Below, piece after piece: positions 8,504-16,130 of a DNA stretch of 64,000 bases. The stretch spans positions 124,001 to 188,000 of the forward strand of contig NZ_SSWH01000003.1 of NCBI RefSeq assembly GCF_004803505.1, in the 5' to 3' direction. Position numbers and translations under genes: made by a program. The notes below the pieces were generated by a model, which was given only the letters and a program-made list of their open reading frames with translations, was not told the DNA's origin and did no database searches. The stretch comes from Arthrobacter echini. Its GTDB lineage: Bacteria > Actinomycetota > Actinomycetes > Actinomycetales > Micrococcaceae. Position 1 is the first letter of the stretch. Every line of letters starts with the position of its first letter.

Positions 8504-9526
8504 TCACCCGCTGTGCCGTACACGGCTCGGCTGCACCCGCGGCGGCTCCCCGGGCATCTTCGGGAAGTCCGGAGGGAAGGGCAGCTCCCCGAGCCCGGCC
8601 TCGACATCGCGGTCCCACCAGGCCTGCAGGACGTCGATCCTTCCGGGCGCCGCGTGGAGGTCCTCCCAGGGATCCCCACCGGCGCGCAGGCGGTCCGGAA
8701 CCGTCGTGATGGTCAGTGCTGCCGGGTCGACGTCGGTCAGCTCCTCCCACGCCACCGGGCAGGAGACCGGTGCGTGGGGAAGGGCCCTCGGGCTGTAGGC
8801 GCCGGCCATCGTGCGATCCCGGTTGGCCTGGTTGTAGTCCACGAAGATCCTGGCCCCGCGTTCCTCCTTCCACCAGGCCGTCGTGACCTGCTCCGGCATA
8901 CGCCGCTCGAGCTCACGGGCCGCGGCGATCACGGCCCGCCGGACCGCCAGGAACTCGTGCACGGGTTCGATGGCGGCGAAGACGTGGAGCCCCCGGTTCC
9001 CGGACGTCTTGACGAAGGGGTCGAGCTCGGCCTCCCGGAGAACACCCCGAAGAGCGTGCGCAGCCGAGACGACGTCGCCGAAGGACGTGCCGGGCTGCGG
9101 ATCCAGATCGACGCGCAGTTCGTCGGGATGATCGGGGTCCTCGGCGCGGGAGGCCCAGGGGTGGAAGACGAGGGTGTTCATCTGGACGGCCCACACCACG
9201 GACGCCGCCTCGTCGAGGACCACCTGCGGATGCGACCGGCCGCTGGGGTAGGTGACCGTCTCACTGCGGACGTAGTCGGGAGCACCCCTGGGCGGATTCT
9301 TGCTGAAGAACGACTCCCCCGCCACGTCCCCGCCGAAGCGCTGCAGCGAGACGGGACGTCCGCCGTTCGCGCGGAGGAAGGCCGGTGCGACCTCGACGAC
9401 GTACCGGGCGAGATCGAGCTTCGTCAGTCCCACCTGCGGCCACACCACGCGGGACGGACTCGACAGGCGCACCCGGCGCGTGCCGTGCGGGCCCTCGACG
9501 TCCAGGGTGATCGCTTCGCGGGCCAT
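8504..9526 (-). CDS. stand-alone LigD polymerase/primase domain protein (NHEJ-type)
   Basis: 340 residues matching the polymerase (PolDom, archaeo-eukaryotic primase-like) domain of DNA ligase D over the whole length. The catalytic metal-binding acidic pair lies in LRVDLDPQPG. KTSGNRGLHVF is the conserved nucleotide-binding block, and IFVDYNQANRDRTMAGAYSPR is the third signature. LigD fills gaps at broken ends with a preference for ribonucleotides during Ku-dependent non-homologous end joining. Here the ligase and phosphoesterase domains are absent, and neither Ku nor an ATP-dependent ligase is nearby, so the partners must be encoded elsewhere or the protein has another repair role. It starts at ATG 9526, just upstream of the receiver protein gene. 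Confidence 0.88.
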   Translation of the reverse strand: MAREAITLDVEGPHGTRRVRLSSPSRVVWPQVGLTKLDLARYVVEVAPAFLRANGGRPVSLQRFGGDVAGESFFSKNPPRGAPDYVRSETVTYPSGRSHPQVVLDEAASVVWAVQMNTLVFHPWASRAEDPDHPDELRVDLDPQPGTSFGDVVSAAHALRGVLREAELDPFVKTSGNRGLHVFAAIEPVHEFLAVRRAVIAAARELERRMPEQVTTAWWKEERGARIFVDYNQANRDRTMAGAYSPRALPHAPVSCPVAWEELTDVDPAALTITTVPDRLRAGGDPWEDLHAAPGRIDVLQAWWDRDVEAGLGELPFPPDFPKMPGEPPRVQPSRVRHSG

Positions 9527-9952: not shown

Positions 9953-10002
9953 CTGCCGTCGTGCATCCTATGAGGAACGGCCCTGCAGAGACGAGGATCA
10001 CC

Positions 10003-10761
10003 ATGGCGTACATCGATCTCAACAGCGATGTCGGGGAGTCCTTCGGCAACTGGACCATGGGCGACGACGCCGCGGTCCTGACATCCGTCTCCAGCGCGAA
10101 CATCGCCTGCGGCTTCCATGCCGGTGATCCCTCGACCATCGCCCAGACCTGCCGCGAGGCGGTTGCCTCCGGCGTGACGATCGGCGCGCACGTGGCGTAC
10201 CGGGATCTGGCCGGGTTCGGCCGCCGCTTCCTGGACTGCTCACCCACCGAGCTGGCCGACGACGTCCTGTACCAGATCGGGGCCCTCGAGGCCATCGCCC
10301 GCGCTGCCGGAGGGACCGTCGCGTACGTCAAACCCCACGGCGCCCTCTACAACACCATCGTCACGCACGAGGTGCATGCCCAGGCCGTGGTCGACGCCGT
10401 CGGGGCCTTCGGGGGCGATCTGCCGCTCCTGCTCCTGCCGGGCTCGGTGGCGTTGACCGCTGCCGAGCGCGCAGGGCTCCGCGGCGTGGCCGAAGCCTTC
10501 GCGGACCGCGCCTACAATCCGGACGGCACCCTGGTCTCCCGCCGCGAGGCGGGCGCCGTGCTGCACGATGAGAGCGAGGTGGCAGCCAACATGGTCCGGC
10601 TCGCCACCGAGGGGGTCATCATCGCCCGCGACGGATCGATCCTGAACACCTCCGCCGAGAGCATCTGCCTCCACGGCGACACCGCCGGAGCAGTGTCCAT
10701 GGCCGCCGCCGTTCGCCGCGAACTCGAAGCAGCCGGTGTCGGGATCCGGAGTTTCGTGTGA
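10003..10761 (+). CDS. pxpA: 5-oxoprolinase subunit PxpA (LamB/YcsF family)
   Basis: 252 residues from ATG 10003, chosen over GTG 9961 because family members begin exactly at the conserved [12 protein letters not shown] block and an AGGA lies just upstream. [21 protein letters not shown] and VKPHGALYN are LamB/YcsF signatures; they contain Asp and His residues typical of this divalent-metal-dependent beta/alpha-barrel family. With PxpB and PxpC it cleaves 5-oxo-L-proline (pyroglutamate) to glutamate at the cost of ATP. It overlaps the next gene by 4 bp (GTGA), so the two are translationally coupled. It is the first gene of a four-gene operon with the fused pxpBC, a biotin carboxylase-BCCP gene and a GntR regulator. 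Confidence 0.93.
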
Positions 10762-12428
10762 GTCCGGTGGGGACGCGCCGGGCCGGACCGCGTGCCCTCC
10801 TCGTGCAGCTCGACTCGCTCCAGGCCGTCCTCGCTGTGCACGCCCGGCTGGAGCAGGACCCGCTGGCGGGCCAGGTGGACGTCCTCGCCGCCGCCAGGAC
10901 CGTGCTGATCACGTTCGCGTCCGGCGCCCATGCCCGGGCCGCCCGGGGTGCCCTCGCGCAGCTCGATGCACCTGCTTCGGCCGAACCCTTCGCGGGCGGC
11001 GACCCGGTGCGCATCGAGGTGGTGTACGACGGCGAGGACCTCGCCGCTGTGGCCCGCCTCACCGGTCTCGACCCCGACGGCGTCGTCGCCGCGCACACGG
11101 GCCAGCTGTGGACCGCGGCCTTCGGGGGCTTCGCCCCGGGCTTCGCCTACCTGATCGGTGAGAACGACGCGCTCACGGTCCCGCGCCGCACGACCCCGCG
11201 TACGGCGGTCCCCGCGGGAGCGGTCGCCCTCGCGGACACCTTCTCGGCCGTCTACCCGCGACGCTCCCCCGGCGGCTGGCAGCTCATCGGCCGGACCGAA
11301 GCGCGGCTGTGGGATCTCGACCGGGACCAGCCGGCCCTGCTGCGCCCCGGCACCTCCGTGCAGTACGTCGCGGTACGGGAAGCTGTGACCCTGGTGAACC
11401 AGGACGTACGGGGCGCGCCCTGCCCCGCAGCGCCCGACCGGGCAGGCGTCGGCGTGGCCGGTTGCCTCGAGGTGATCGAGGCAGGGCCGCTGTCCCTCAT
11501 CCAGGATCTCGGCCGGCCGGGCCACGGCGACGTCGGTGTGCCTGCGTCCGGAGCAGCCGATACCGCAAGTGCCCGCCAGGCCAACAGGCTGGTGGGGAAC
11601 CTGCCGACGGACGCGGTGATCGAGACCGTTCTCGGCGGGCTCACGGTCCGCGCACAGGGAGAACTGACGGCGGCCCTGGCGGGAGCCGTGACACCGGCCC
11701 GGATCCGGGGCGCGGATGACAGCAGCCGCCCGGCTCCCATGGATGCTCCGTTCGCGCTGCACGACGGCGAGCGCCTCCACCTCGGGCCGCCGACGACGGG
11801 GCTGCGCACGTATCTGGCCGTCAGGGGCGGCATCGACGTCCCGCTCGTCCTGGGCAGCCGCTCCACGGATGTCCTGTCCGGGCTCGGGCCGGATCCGCTG
11901 TCGGCGGGGACCGTGCTGCCCGTGGGTGAGGTGGACACGGCGCGGATGGTAGGCCTGCCCGAAGTCTCCGCGCTCACCGACACGATCGCCTCGGGTGCTG
12001 CCGGGCCCGCGGTCCTGCGGATCACCCCGGGTCCCCGTGACGACTGGTTCACCCCTGCATCCCGTGAGGGTCTCACGGAACAGACCTGGCTGGTGACCGA
12101 CCAGTCGAACCGCATCGGCATCCGGCTCGCGCTGCCGGACACACCGGGCAGCAGGGCGCTGGAACGCGCCGTCACCGACGAACTCCCGAGCGAGGGTGTC
12201 GTGGCGGGCTCCCTCCAGGTACCCCCTTCCGGTCTGCCGGTCGTGTTCCTCGCCGATCATCCGGTGACCGGAGGGTACCCGGTGATCGGCGTCGTGGTAC
12301 CCGAGGATCTGCCCGTCGCCGCGCAGCTCGGCCCGGGCACGAGCGTGGTCTTCGTGGCGGTCGACGCCGAGACCCTGCAGCCGCTGCCGTGCACCGATGC
12401 AGCCCTTACCCGAACCCCGTGGAAGTAG
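10758..12428 (+). CDS. pxpBC: fused 5-oxoprolinase subunits PxpB-PxpC (KipI-KipA)
   Basis: 556 residues in one frame from GTG 10758. Residues about 1-220 are the PxpB/KipI (AHS1) domain with [10 protein letters not shown] and [17 protein letters not shown]. Residues about 232-546 are the PxpC/KipA (AHS2) domain, opening with [19 protein letters not shown] and [18 protein letters not shown]. In many bacteria these are two separate genes. In urea carboxylase the homologous pair forms the carboxyltransferase part, which is relevant because a biotin carboxylase-BCCP protein is encoded directly downstream (start 5 bp after this stop). The fusion keeps the two halves at 1:1. Biochemically, PxpB and PxpC are needed with PxpA for ATP-dependent opening of 5-oxoproline. 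Confidence 0.92.
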
Positions 12429-12433
12429 CCACC

Positions 12434-14221
12434 ATGAAGAAGGTCCTGATCGCCAACCGCGGCGAGATCGCCGTGCGCATCATCCGGGCGTGCACCGATG
12501 CGGAGCTGACCTCGGTCGCCGTGTACTCCGACGTCGACGCCGATGCCCTGCACGTCCGCCTCAGCGACGAGGCATACGCCCTGCCCGGATCATCGAGTGC
12601 GGACACCTATCTGAACATCGCCGGGCTCCTCGACGTGGCTGCCCGCGCCGGGGCGGACGCCGTGCATCCGGGGTACGGGTTCCTGTCGGAGAACGCCGAC
12701 TTCGCCCAGGCCGTGCTGGATGCCGGTCTCACCTGGATCGGGCCACCCCCCGAGGCGATCAGGATCCTCGGCAACAAGGTCACGGCCAGGGACATCGCCG
12801 TGAAGGTCGGCGCGCCCCTGGTTCCGGGATCGGACGGGCCGGCCGCGACCGCCGGCGAGGTCCGTGCCTTCGCGGAGGAGCACGGCGTGCCCGTCGCCAT
12901 CAAGGCCGCCTACGGCGGGGGCGGCCGCGGGATGCGCATAGCCCACAGACTGGAGGACATCGACGACGCCTTCGATTCCGCGGTCCGTGAAGCGACCGCC
13001 GCGTTCGGTCGCGGCGAGTGCTTCGTCGAACGGTTCCTCGCGACACCGAGGCACGTCGAGGCGCAGGTGCTCGCCGATACGCACGGCACCGTCGTCGTCG
13101 TGGGGACCCGCGACTGCTCGCTGCAGCGTCGTAATCAGAAGCTCGTCGAGGAGGCTCCGGCACCGTTCCTCACCGCGGACCAGCGTGTGCGCATCCACGA
13201 GTCGGCCCGCGCCATCTGCCGCGAGGCCGGCTACATCGGCGCCGGTACCGTCGAATACCTGGTGGCCCCCGACGGCGTGATCTCCTTCCTCGAGGTCAAT
13301 ACGCGCCTGCAGGTGGAGCATCCGGTGACCGAGGCGACCTCGGGCGTCGACCTGGTGCGTGAACAGTTCCGGATTGCGGCCGGACTGCCGATGAGCATCA
13401 CCGAGGACCCGGCACCGACCGGTCACGCGTTCGAGTTCCGCCTCAACGCCGAGGATCCGGGCCGCGGTTTCCTGCCCTCCCCCGGTCCTGTGGACGTGTT
13501 CGAGGCACCCACCGGCGCCGGTGTCCGGGTGGACACGGGGGTCCGGCCCGGCTCGAGTGTGCCGGCCCAGTACGACTCCTTGATGGCCAAGCTGATCGTG
13601 CACGGCGAGGATCGTCCCCAGGCGCTGCGGCGCGCACGTGCCGCCCTCGACGAACTGCGGATCGAGGGCCTGCCGACCGTCCTTCCGTTCCACCGGGCCG
13701 TGGTGCGCGAGCCCGATTTCACCGACCCCGGGACACTCCGGGTCCACACCACGTGGATAGAGGGCGCCTTCGCCCCACGGCTGGACGCAGCACTCTCGAG
13801 TGGCACGGCCTCGCCCGTGGCCCGCCGCCAGACCCTCACCGTGGAGATCGACGGCAGGGCCGTCCAGCTGGGACTGCCCGCCACCGTCTTCGCGGCCCTC
13901 ATGAACGGCGCTGGAGCACCGATCGATCGGGCCGCCGGTCCGGCAGTCCGCGGCGGTGCCGGCGACGACGGTACTGTCGGCCGTGACCCGGCCAAGGACC
14001 GCGCGGTCACGGCGTCGATGGGTGGGACCCTGGTGAAATGGCTGGTCGACGACGGCGCGTTGATCACGGTCGGGCAGTCCGTCGCGGTGATCGAAGCCAT
14101 GAAGATGGAGACCGACGTGGTCTGCTCGGTGGCCGGGGTCTTCCGTCGCGGTGACCAGGAGCCCGGCGGGGTCGTCGTCCGCGGCGAGGCACTGGGAACG
14201 GTGGGTGGCCTCCCGTCGTGA
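12434..14221 (+). CDS. biotin carboxylase-BCCP fusion linked to PxpABC
   Basis: 595 residues from ATG 12434. Residues 1 to about 450 form a full biotin carboxylase: [14 protein letters not shown] at the start, the ATP-grasp glycine loop [23 protein letters not shown] and the active-site block [13 protein letters not shown]. The last roughly 75 residues are a biotinyl (BCCP) domain with the biotin-accepting lysine at about residue 557 in EAMKMETD. No carboxyltransferase domain is present. Acyl-CoA carboxylase alpha subunits share this build, but here no CoA-carboxylase beta subunit is nearby. The partner is more likely the KipI/KipA pair encoded just upstream, as in urea carboxylase. It overlaps the GntR gene by 4 bp (GTGA). 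Confidence 0.92.
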
Positions 14222-14916
14222 CGACAGCCGAAGACACCACGCCGACGGCGGATGCTGACCGGGACCGTCCCGCCGGCTCGGCGGAGTACGCGCACACCGC
14301 CGGGTGGGTCGCCTCCGTCCTGCGCGCGCGGATCGCGGCGGGAGATCTCACGCCCGGGACCAAGCTCTCCGAGCAGACCCTCTCGACCTCGCTCGGGGTC
14401 TCCCGCAACACGCTGCGTGAGGCCTTCTCTGCGCTCGCCGGTGAATCCGTGATCACGAGGATCCCGAATCGGGGAGTATTCGTCGCCTCACCCGGGATCG
14501 AGGAGGTACGCGAGATCTACCGCGTGCGCCGCGCCATCGAACCGGCCGCCGTCCTCTGGGGTGAGCTCAGCGCGGAGGCACTGGAGAGCATGGAGAGCAT
14601 CGTGCAACGCGCCCTGACGGCGCGGGACGACGGTGCGGTTGCGGACATGGCCGATGCGAACCAGGCCCTGCACAGTAGCGTGGTGGACCTCACCGGCAGT
14701 TCCTCCCTCCGGGTGCTCATGGACCGTGTGCTCGCGGAGATGCGACTGGTCTTCCACGCCATGACCTCGGCTCCCGACTTCCACGCCCACTTCGTGGAGC
14801 GCAACGTCCGGCTCGTCGAACGGCTTCGGGCCGGAGATCGGCTGGCGGCCGCGGAAGGACTACGCGCCTACCTGGACGACGCCGAGACGGAGCTGGTTCG
14901 CCGGATCAGCACCTAG
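14218..14916 (+). CDS. GntR-family regulator, FadR subfamily (FCD domain), of the pxp locus
   Basis: 232 residues from GTG 14218. The winged helix-turn-helix spans about residues 25-90 ([26 protein letters not shown], then the wing [12 protein letters not shown]). The remainder is an all-helical FCD effector domain ([35 protein letters not shown]). Some of the usual FCD metal-site histidines look replaced: the second HR pair reads ERN. As the last gene of the pxp operon, it is the natural candidate to bind the three TTGTT-n-AACAA palindromes at 9934-9952 and 16192-16226, with the lactam or its product as effector (inference). Its stop overlaps that of the convergent transporter gene by 2 bases. 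Confidence 0.9.
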
Positions 14917-16130
14917 CCCCACAGTTGAGCCAGCCCGGTGATCGAGGTGTAGCCGAGGAACAGGGTGAGGAACCAGGTGAGGACACCGATCACCAGCAGC
15001 CACCTCGGGTAGACGTAACCGTGCATCAGGTCCCGGCGGCGCCACGCCACCCAGAGCAGCACGCCGAATCCGACGGGCAGGATCAGTCCGTTGAACGCCC
15101 CGGCGAAGATGAGCAGTTGCTGAGGTGCCTGGCCGAGGAACAGATAGGCCACAGCACACCCGGCGATGAAGGCGACCGTGATGAGATTGCGCGTGCGATC
15201 AGGCGTCCTCGAGGACGTGATGAACGAGACCGAGGTGAACGCCGCGCCGATCACCGAGGTGATCGCTGCTGCCCAGAGGACGATTCCGAACAGGCGCATG
15301 CCGACGTCACCGGCGGCGATCCCGAAGGCCTCGGCTGCCATGTTCTCGCTCGAGAGCACCGCTCCGCCGGCGACGACGCCGAAGATGGCCAGGAACAGCA
15401 GGACGCGCATGAGACCGGTGACGATGATGCCCAGGACGGAGCTGCGGGTGATCTCCTTCACGCTCTCGATGCCGGTCGCGCCGGAGTCGAGCATGCGGTG
15501 GGCGCCTGCATAGGTGATGTAGCCGCCCACGGTGCCACCGACGAGGGTGGTGATGATGAGGAAGTCGATCTGCTCCGGGAGGACGGCGTTCCGCAGGGCT
15601 TCTCCGAGCGGCGGTGCGGCGACGATCGCGACATAGATCATCAGCAGGATCATGATGGCACCGAGGATCACCACGATGCGGTCCAGTGCCATGCCGGCCT
15701 TCTTGCTGACGAAGATCATGATGGCGATGATCGCCGAGACGGCGCCGCCGATCTTCGGGTCGAGGCCGAGCATCGCATTGGCGCCGAGCCCGGTTCCGGC
15801 GATGTTGCCGATGTTGAAGACCACGCCCCCGATGAAGACCAGCCCGGCCAGGAACCAGCCGACTCCGGGGATGACCCGGTTGCCCAGCTCCTGGGCGCGG
15901 AGGCCGGAGACGCCGATGACCCGCCAGACGTTGAGCTGGACGGCGATGTCGATGAGGATCGAGGCCAGGATGGCGAAGGCGAACGCTGCGCCGATCTGGG
16001 CGGTGAAGACCGTGGTCTGGGTGATGAACCCGGGTCCGATGGCGCTGGTCGCCATCAGGAACATCGCGCCCAGCAGAGCTGTGCGCCGCGTGGATGAACT
16101 CAATCGTGGCGTACTGCCGGTCTCTGCCAT
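14913..16130 (-). CDS. NRAMP-fold transporter lacking the metal-site motifs (YcsG-like), probable lactam/5-oxoproline permease
   Basis: 405 residues with about 11 hydrophobic helices, in the NRAMP superfamily. Canonical NRAMPs bind Mn/Fe through DPGN in helix 1 and MPH in helix 6. Here helix 1 reads IGPGFITQTTVFTAQIG (31-47), with no DPGN. Helix 6 reads GGTVGGYITYAGAHRM (198-213), with GGY where MPH belongs. A divalent-metal role is therefore unlikely. Bacillus subtilis YcsG, an NRAMP relative, lies in the ycsFGI-kip (pxp) locus, so uptake of 5-oxoproline or a related lactam is the best inference. It is convergent with the GntR gene. Its upstream region carries two GntR palindromes and a CRP-like site. 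It starts at ATG 16130. Confidence 0.85.
   Translation of the reverse strand: MAETGSTPRLSSSTRRTALLGAMFLMATSAIGPGFITQTTVFTAQIGAAFAFAILASILIDIAVQLNVWRVIGVSGLRAQELGNRVIPGVGWFLAGLVFIGGVVFNIGNIAGTGLGANAMLGLDPKIGGAVSAIIAIMIFVSKKAGMALDRIVVILGAIMILLMIYVAIVAAPPLGEALRNAVLPEQIDFLIITTLVGGTVGGYITYAGAHRMLDSGATGIESVKEITRSSVLGIIVTGLMRVLLFLAIFGVVAGGAVLSSENMAAEAFGIAAGDVGMRLFGIVLWAAAITSVIGAAFTSVSFITSSRTPDRTRNLITVAFIAGCAVAYLFLGQAPQQLLIFAGAFNGLILPVGFGVLLWVAWRRRDLMHGYVYPRWLLVIGVLTWFLTLFLGYTSITGLAQLWG

Follow-up and report, generated by a model that had tools for sequence, protein, structure and literature searches.

A candidate biotin-dependent lactam-opening enzyme encoded by a pxpA-pxpBC-biotin carboxylase operon of Arthrobacter echini

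Bacterial 5-oxoprolinase is assumed to phosphorylate its substrate, yet PxpB and PxpC, two subunits of this PxpABC enzyme, are carboxyltransferase homologues. Opening of the 5-oxoproline ring needs energy, the equilibrium constant being ∼0.035 for an ATP-independent enzyme (PMC13274462). Here we describe an operon in a 64,000-nucleotide stretch of the Arthrobacter echini genome (assembly GCF_004803505.1, contig NZ_SSWH01000003.1, positions 124,001–188,000 of the forward strand; hereafter the window) in which homologues of the PxpA, PxpB, and PxpC of Escherichia coli, Bacillus subtilis, and Corynebacterium glutamicum are all present together, followed by a protein that joins a biotin carboxylase (BC) to a biotin carboxyl carrier protein (BCCP). 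The pxp clusters of C. glutamicum and B. subtilis resemble it further in having a transporter or Nramp/YcsG gene and a regulator. It differs from the known systems in the BC-BCCP, which neither accompanies the E. coli genes nor is named in the C. glutamicum pxpTABC cluster, and in the fusion of PxpB to PxpC, which are separate proteins there. We consider it probable that the operon products form a biotin-dependent, lactam-opening enzyme, with 5-oxoproline as the likeliest substrate, that combines PxpABC with the principle of urea carboxylase.

Urea carboxylase, or urea amidolyase (TIGR02712; PDB 3va7 and 5i8i), likewise unites BC and BCCP with a CT_C_D/CT_A_B carboxyltransferase, and its N-carboxylation is driven by ATP and biotin, with hydrolysis carried out by a second enzyme. 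In contrast to the window operon, it is a single chain with the BC first, the carboxyltransferase in the middle, and the BCCP last, and its partner is allophanate hydrolase rather than PxpA. The mumTLUHC operon of Acinetobacter baumannii comprises an NRAMP gene, two further small genes, a PxpBC-type gene called “allophanate hydrolase,” and a biotin carboxylase, and is described as conserved in bacteria (PMC5050338); it differs in having been assigned to urea breakdown, and the window is without a D-glutamate-cyclase-like gene. With mumTLUHC the operon type is already in print, and what we put forward as new is a 5-oxoprolinase role for its BC. In the article text accessible to our literature search, we found no publication proposing a biotin carboxylase as part of 5-oxoprolinase. 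Caprolactamase CapAB also hydrolyzes a lactam with ATP and needs bicarbonate, but, as described in PMC8453981, its proteins are unrelated members of the hydantoinase/oxoprolinase family and use no biotin; that paper brings in biotin carboxylase for comparison.

The first gene of the operon, pxpA (10003..10761, plus strand), encodes a LamB/YcsF-family protein of 252 amino acids, the predicted ring-opening subunit. Its start is the ATG at 10003, with an in-frame GTG also at 9961, and the product matches both LamB_YcsF (PF03746; 4.9e-98 in Pfam) and the 5-oxoprolinase subunit PxpA model NF003814 (3e-106; 354.4 bits against a cutoff of 226). A 4-bp overlap joins pxpA to pxpBC (10758..12428, plus strand), in which one frame of 556 amino acids holds CT_C_D (PF02682, 6.6e-56) and CT_A_B (PF02626, 1.3e-81), making it a homologue of the urea carboxylase carboxyltransferase by its Pfam domains and PDB relatives. 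The solved relatives of this fusion are 3mml, 9yx5, 3oep, 5dud, 3va7, and 5i8i, and its nearest named relatives come from Arthrobacter. It scores below the PxpB and PxpC equivalog cutoffs (115.7 against 145.55 and 169.8 against 500 bits, respectively) and above that of the broader TIGR00724 domain (246.4 against 230.2 bits).

The BC-BCCP gene follows after a 5-bp gap (12434..14221, plus strand). Pfam, PDB matches, and the checked residues identify its product, of 595 amino acids, as an AccA3-like paralogue with Biotin_carb_N, CPSase_L_D2, Biotin_carb_C, and Biotin_lipoyl domains. At 13 E. coli AccC positions that we take to be the functional ones, 12 residues are identical in the window protein, the exception being H236, which is N; the kept residues point to a catalytically intact BC. 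The biotinyl BCCP domain spans residues 525–587 (14006..14194, plus strand; PF00364, 4.5e-9), and its AMKM motif begins at residue 555, with K557 (codon 14102–14104) as the predicted biotin lysine. These features bear out a preliminary description of the locus, which had reported a tightly coupled operon of pxpA, a one-frame PxpB-PxpC fusion, and a BC-BCCP with intact BC and AMKM biotin site.

In places, PxpBC and BC-BCCP are fused. In four of five genomes of one genus of the family (code g87; L143, L144, L145, and L146), PxpB, PxpC, BC, and BCCP occupy a single open frame, uninterrupted over 1292–1583 codons and containing a proline/alanine-rich linker; the fifth genome has a degenerate BC. 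This fusion has a domain set identical to that of urea carboxylase, but in a different order. Across 88 loci in which a BC adjoins PxpBC (linked loci), BC distances follow PxpBC distances with r = 0.885, a value reached by 0 of 500 permutations, and PxpA distances follow them slightly less closely (r = 0.859). A quick BC tree of 80 rows drew on 50 linked loci, selected for their spread. In it, the AccA3-type genes, among them the AccA3 of the window genome itself, group as a single clade of 12 rows that contains no linked BC. As this clade branches from inside the larger set of linked BCs, the tree is silent on which came first. The BCs of split clusters fall in several other places (four changes, at least three of them forced by starred branches), so BCs have probably been recruited to pxpBC more than once. 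Considered together, the fusion, the co-inheritance, the several recruited BC lineages, the genome inventories described below, and PDB 9yx5 make a predicted BC-BCCP/PxpBC complex well supported.

The link also recurs far from the window. We took the best 80 loci of the named collection, ranked by PxpBC similarity and not by BC, and found a BC ≤4.5 kb downstream on the same strand in 57 and PxpA near in 78; by phylum, the link is present in 31/31 loci of Pseudomonadota and 26/49 of Actinomycetota. No BCCP match is present in seven of the 57 (L253, L264, L270, L272, L276, L278, and L296), some of which lie on short contigs and one of which, L272, is degenerate. Among the 23 unlinked loci, three end <1.5 kb from PxpC, and L263 has a BC-BCCP ∼5 kb upstream. 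Plasmids of Paracoccus, Pantoea, and Thioclava have the same linked arrangement, and those of Lactiplantibacillus, Rhizobium, Aureimonas, Sulfitobacter, and the archaeon Haladaptatus (here with BC on the other strand) have split genes with a BC; examples from Methylobacterium and Deinococcus plasmids are without one. These belong to 16 plasmid loci hand-picked from 743 records, 14 of them with a BC, on the same strand in 13. Since the arrangement recurs across phyla, chance cannot explain it, and its recurrence in many named and plasmid loci led us to reject the link as a private feature of the window lineage.

Closer to A. echini, the link is frequent in the family and rare in the class. A PxpBC row is present in 109/120 genomes of the family sample, and in at least 66 of these BC-BCCP follows PxpBC directly in the same orientation, the PxpBC and BC matches being 1–153 bp apart in at least 59 of the linked genomes; the BC rows counted are the top-scoring ones down to ∼687 bits and two lower rows seen to be adjacent. 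From the 43 family genomes without an adjacent BC, 40 loci were fetched and three left out. An intact first-type BC is present in three of the 40 (L172, L173, and L182) and a degenerate one in two (L158 and L178), L193 has a different arrangement, L188 ends 27 bases after PxpC, and the remaining 33 have none. For the class, an even draw of 148 genomes gave 98 with PxpB and 118 PxpB rows, of which 95 were examined, leaving out five fragments and 18 weaker rows, mostly long frames; because the latter may include urea carboxylases and second-type clusters (see below), the class count is restricted to first-type PxpBC. No PxpC match is present in two of the 95 loci, and L046 ends 2 bases after PxpC. 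A BC adjoins PxpBC in 2/93 loci with a PxpC match, namely the window and one genome of the same family.

Another reading of the BC-BCCP is that it serves as a spare α subunit of an acyl-CoA carboxylase encoded elsewhere. AccA3 is its best solved match, the AccA3 of its own genome shares 55.6% identity with it over 594 residues, and an actinobacterial α subunit can serve several β subunits (PMC11001197). The species-specific gains of L. pentosus include an extra BC and BCCP, which the authors take as an acetyl-CoA carboxylase copy, and also pxpB and pxpC, which they treat as separate (PMC12427679). The gain of both pairs suits our own reading as well, and on an L. plantarum plasmid the two are neighbors. 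Genome-wide pairing argues against such a role. In the 3.18-Mb A. echini genome, PF02785 finds four BC domains and PF01039 two carboxyltransferases; both PF01039 matches lie on contig C22 together with two BC matches (match ends ∼1.1 kb and ∼6.8 kb apart), and a third BC is in a 1155-amino-acid frame, taken as pyruvate carboxylase by its size. Among the BC and PF01039 matches found, the window BC-BCCP is the only BC unpaired with a carboxyltransferase. No PF01039 β subunit is encoded beside it, as the preliminary description had noted, both genome copies being near other BCs on C22. A missing neighboring accD alone carries little weight, and the pairing across the genome carries more.

Other genomes, in assemblies of unstated completeness, give a similar picture. 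Xenorhabdus yunnanensis (G271) and Photorhabdus bodei (G282) each have two BC domains, one in a 453-amino-acid frame of AccC size and one linked to PxpBC, and each has one AccA half and one AccD half as its PF01039 matches. Of these, the two accA genes and the accD of G282 are confirmed by NCBIfam, with the AccD half of G271 left untyped. In P. namnaonensis (G283), accA and accD are the only PF01039 matches, and its BCs were left uncounted; the two BCs of Cedecea neteri (G270) are accompanied by three PF01039 matches, one typed as accD and two not typed. Because G271 and G282 hold only AccA/AccD halves, their linked BC-BCCP would have no acyl-CoA carboxyltransferase to serve. A spare PF01039 carboxyltransferase is absent from both, in a search that did not cover pyruvate-carboxylase-type carboxyltransferases, and this gap tells against our proposal.

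A genome count of BCs beside pxpBC without accD, as suggested in the preliminary description, agrees with these inventories. Besides the 57 linked loci, the best 80 named loci give 0 matches to our AccD probes, which are two actinobacterial proteins and could be escaped by distant AccD types; the probes matched four AccA3 loci (L038, L039, L204, and L208) and not nine others, where AccD may lie further off. Given the genome pairing, these 0/80 AccD matches, and the G271 and G282 inventories, we rejected an acyl-CoA carboxylase role, and since the linked BCs also stand apart from AccA3 in the BC tree, a spare α subunit seems very improbable. By neighborhood, fusion, and genome pairing, PxpBC is the best candidate for the carboxyltransferase partner of the window BC-BCCP.

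A solved entry combines the same types of protein. PDB 9yx5, which we know from its chain names and sequences alone, holds an AccA3 chain alongside chains that bear the names allophanate hydrolase subunit 1 and subunit 2 (AHS1/AHS2). Among solved structures, the window BC-BCCP is best matched by this AccA3, and PxpBC by the AHS chains together with 3mml, so that an actinobacterial BC-BCCP and PxpB/PxpC homologues are found within one entry. In contrast to the window, the BC-BCCP of 9yx5 is the shared housekeeping AccA3, the subunits are separate, and pxpA is not adjacent in close relatives. The source of the entry is presumably M. smegmatis, and our literature search found no paper on it. MSMEG_0435 is named allophanate hydrolase subunit 2 (PMC11001197), in line with that source. 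Nine loci 66–87% identical to 3mml, the mycobacterial-type pxpB-pxpC pairs (L058, L059, L064, L068, L078, L081, L087, L121, and L294), have no PxpA in the fetched stretch; of eight such genomes searched, seven have one pxpA elsewhere.

Several further observations weigh against a biotin mechanism. A BC is lacking from 33 of the 40 fetched family loci without an adjacent BC and from 91/93 class loci, E. coli pxpBCA has none alongside, and 9yx5 belongs to the PxpBC type without an adjacent pxpA. A quick PxpBC tree, built from 68 linked rows and from 42 of the 117 unlinked ones, places 10 unlinked rows with the 68 linked ones in a 78-row group, the other 32 rows all being unlinked; the linkage label changes nine times, most simply by one gain and repeated losses. 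Within one genus (code g84), a BC lies between PxpC and GntR in one genome, and GntR follows PxpC at once in two. Applied to linked and unlinked PxpBC (88 and 145 loci, omitting four odd linked and six truncated or doubtful ones), an 80%/40% rule picks out just five weakly diagnostic columns, and the unlinked proteins keep the conserved residues of the linked ones. With almost no diagnostic columns, biotin use is not readable from the PxpBC sequence. Degenerate BCs without the biotin lysine occur in L158 (8596–9813), L178 (5847–7367, minus strand), and L272 (7659–9182), and in one alignment nearly all of twelve checked residues are lost in the first two and three in L272. These degenerate BCs still occupy long open frames, as decaying genes or retained non-catalytic subunits would. 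Niehaus and colleagues reportedly rebuilt the activity in 2017 from recombinant B. subtilis PxpA, PxpB, and PxpC without BC, and Meister’s group is said to have found a phosphorylated intermediate. PxpBC is also assumed in print to phosphorylate 5-oxoproline (PMC13274462).

Such points favor a reading in which PxpABC opens 5-oxoproline by direct phosphorylation with ATP and the BC-BCCP is an accessory, in bicarbonate/biotin housekeeping or regulation, or a remnant: BC-less PxpABC with the same conserved residues is common in Actinomycetes (the 91/93 loci), BC has been lost repeatedly and is degenerate in three loci, and reviews speak of ATP hydrolysis by PxpB/PxpC (PMC8453981) and of assumed phosphorylation (PMC13274462). 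However, direct phosphorylation sits poorly with an in-frame PxpBC-BC fusion, co-inheritance as tight as that of PxpA, the recruitment of several BC lineages, a conserved BC active site, and 9yx5, and we regard it as unlikely. Because unlinked PxpBC has the same conserved residues, either AccA3 replaces the lost BC or PxpBC works without biotin. The direction indicated by 9yx5 suggests the former. All 31 Pseudomonadota loci, rows that are not independent, have the BC, and housekeeping AccB and AccC are separate proteins in E. coli; this constancy fits AccA3 substitution elsewhere. The B. subtilis reconstitution and the phosphorylated intermediate, as reported, speak for PxpBC working without biotin.

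The mum operon raises urea as the substrate instead. In its authors’ terms, MumH is an allophanate hydrolase and MumC a urea carboxylase; in their hands, deletion of mumC impaired growth on urea, and deletion of mumH did not abolish urea use (PMC5050338). The mumC phenotype counts against our proposal and for a split urea carboxylase, in which BC-BCCP and PxpBC would together act as a carboxylase of urea or something similar to it and PxpA would have another substrate; the homology of PxpBC to the urea carboxylase carboxyltransferase is likewise in its favor. The mumH phenotype points the other way, as MumH is the PxpBC homologue by gene order and a carboxyltransferase would be required for urea use. 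We infer that mumTLUHC equals, gene by gene, the order Nramp, PxpA, D-Glu-cyclase-like, PxpBC, and BC-BCCP of Acinetobacter loci L223 and L295, and the MumH type is, by homology, a predicted carboxyltransferase. This domain, annotated as allophanate hydrolase, has already been judged most likely to serve carboxyl transfer, the two-gene form being described as unstudied, and Thermococcales carry the two UCT-like genes (PMC3199775). From the main text of PMC5050338, the terms oxoprolin-, pyroglutam-, YcsF, KipI, lactam, and carboxyltransferase are all absent. The window itself has four of the five mum-type genes together, with no PF07286 hydro-lyase and with Nramp on the opposite strand.

Further evidence separates the operon from urea carboxylase proper. 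Besides its mum-type operon, Acinetobacter sp. NIPH 2100 (L295, G274) has two ∼1200-amino-acid frames, each with BC and CT_C_D, which are likely the better urea carboxylase candidates. Against the TIGR02712 cutoff of 1303.85 bits, the window PxpBC scores 143.5 and the BC 499.1. None of the five proteins encoded at 9961–16130, the part of the window and genome searched for it, is an AtzF-type allophanate hydrolase, unlike a urea carboxylase cluster (L233) that does carry one. The TIGR02712 scores and the mumH deletion led us to reject urea carboxylase as the sole account, and a split urea carboxylase appears rather improbable.

The preferred reading, a biotin-dependent lactam-opening enzyme, corresponds to a model in which the BC domain, with its intact residues and by homology, would carboxylate the BCCP biotin with ATP and bicarbonate. 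The BCCP would then dock on the fused PxpBC, a urea-carboxylase-type carboxyltransferase, as the fusions, the co-inheritance, and 9yx5 suggest. PxpBC would place the CO2 on the nitrogen of the ring, that of 5-oxoproline or of a related lactam, and PxpA would hydrolyze the N-carboxy-lactam to N-carboxy-glutamate, which would shed CO2 to leave glutamate. ATP would thus be spent by the BC domain, and bicarbonate would be a recycled catalyst. In actinobacteria that lost the dedicated BC-BCCP, housekeeping AccA3 would probably supply the carboxybiotin. The net equation is that of the known ATP-dependent 5-oxoprolinase reaction, so a need for bicarbonate could have gone unnoticed; earlier hydantoinase/oxoprolinase work, as covered in PMC8453981, reported no bicarbonate requirement, and the unrelated caprolactamase has one. 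The preliminary description had proposed a biotin-dependent lactamase. Its core, that BC-BCCP works with PxpBC and not as an acyl-CoA carboxylase, stands on the fusions, the co-inheritance, the inventories, and 9yx5, and its N-carboxylation step and the identity of the lactam are what we infer. A lactam substrate is suggested by PxpA, by the operon context, and by the sizes quoted for a classical Pseudomonas putida enzyme.

That enzyme, the two-component 5-oxoprolinase of Meister’s group, was reportedly interpreted at the time as acting by direct ATP activation. Its component A consists of six dimers, each pairing a 64- with a 51-kDa polypeptide, and has an ATPase activity that depends on oxoproline; a separate component B of 82 kDa is required for ring opening (PMC8453981), a division that resembles the one proposed here. 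In eight Pseudomonas loci, among which P. putida itself is not included so that the comparison is of sizes only, the predicted masses are 60.5–62.1 kDa for BC-BCCP and 53.9–57.2 kDa for PxpBC. PxpA is predicted at 26.5–28.2 kDa in the six loci with a clear start, which would give a trimer of ∼80–85 kDa. An E. coli-type split PxpB of 23.9 kDa and PxpC of 34.4 kDa cannot yield 64 and 51. As the component A sizes fit BC-BCCP plus PxpBC, preparations made decades ago may already have contained this biotin enzyme, unrecognized.

A D-glutamate cyclase family gene (PF07286) is present in 28/57 linked and 3/23 unlinked named loci. In addition, a search of 18 genomes found six with an extra PxpB-type row that neither neighbors a BC row nor belongs to a frame of urea carboxylase length; in five (Cedecea, Variovorax, Cupriavidus, Paenirhodobacter, and Sinomonas), it is a short frame of 222–257 amino acids. 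Both observations would suit a variant, overlapping in its odds with the preferred explanation, in which the same biotin mechanism acts on another lactam, such as 5-oxo-D-proline from D-glutamate, and ordinary PxpABC handles 5-oxo-L-proline. However, the window genome has no PF07286 match, and component A of P. putida was defined with 5-oxoproline (PMC8453981, with 5-oxo-L-proline in titles cited there), and we regard another lactam as possible, though not the better bet. PF07286 genes often lie in or beside the operon, for example, in L040 (2712–3632, minus strand) and L219 (3213–3983), and hint at 5-oxo-D-proline or D-glutamate metabolism.

Downstream of the BC stop, and overlapping it by 4 bp, the window encodes a GntR/FCD regulator (14218..14916, plus strand; PF00392 and PF07729), with which an Nramp-family transporter gene of YcsG/MntG/MumT-like type (14913..16130, minus strand; PF01566, 1.5e-22) is convergent. 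Within the stretches examined, a GntR match is near 48/57 linked and 6/23 unlinked named loci, and an Nramp match near 30/57 and 2/23, respectively. The Nramp gene was once taken for a 5-oxoproline importer, although B. subtilis YcsG imports Mn (PMC10448178), so its presence cannot decide the substrate. Next to the operon on its upstream side, a minus-strand open reading frame (8504–9526) has, by eye, the look of a protein with a LigD-type primase/polymerase domain.

A second cluster type, with a diverged PxpB and the order PxpA-BCCP-BC-PxpB-PxpC, occurs in actinobacteria, in proteobacteria, and, rearranged, in a haloarchaeon (L194–L201, L215–L217, L220, and L230), with a LysR regulator in the annotated proteobacterial examples; its small BCCP in L215 and L216 has VMK[SN]F instead of AMKM. 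On an L. plantarum plasmid (L224, 4231–10387), pxpB, pxpC, BCCP, BC, hydro-lyase, pxpA, and NRAMP genes stand in a row. This plasmid is typed as conjugative, and the whole pathway may be mobile.

A broader version of the proposal is that the widespread ATP-dependent 5-oxoprolinase is a biotin enzyme throughout, in which PxpBC would N-carboxylate the lactam with carboxybiotin from a dedicated BC-BCCP or else from AccA3 or AccBC, component A of P. putida being the BC-BCCP/PxpBC complex. We offer this version tentatively and consider it doubtful; were it true, bicarbonate would be the hidden catalyst of 5-oxoprolinase. If a biotin carboxylase does drive 5-oxoprolinase in many species, a common metabolite-repair and catabolic step, on 5-oxoproline arising from glutamate and glutamine, would use CO2 as a catalyst, and the biotin-carboxylase family would gain lactams as a substrate class. 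The assignment of the mum operon to “urea carboxylase” would then need retesting, and actinobacterial AccA3 would have a partner beyond lipid synthesis.

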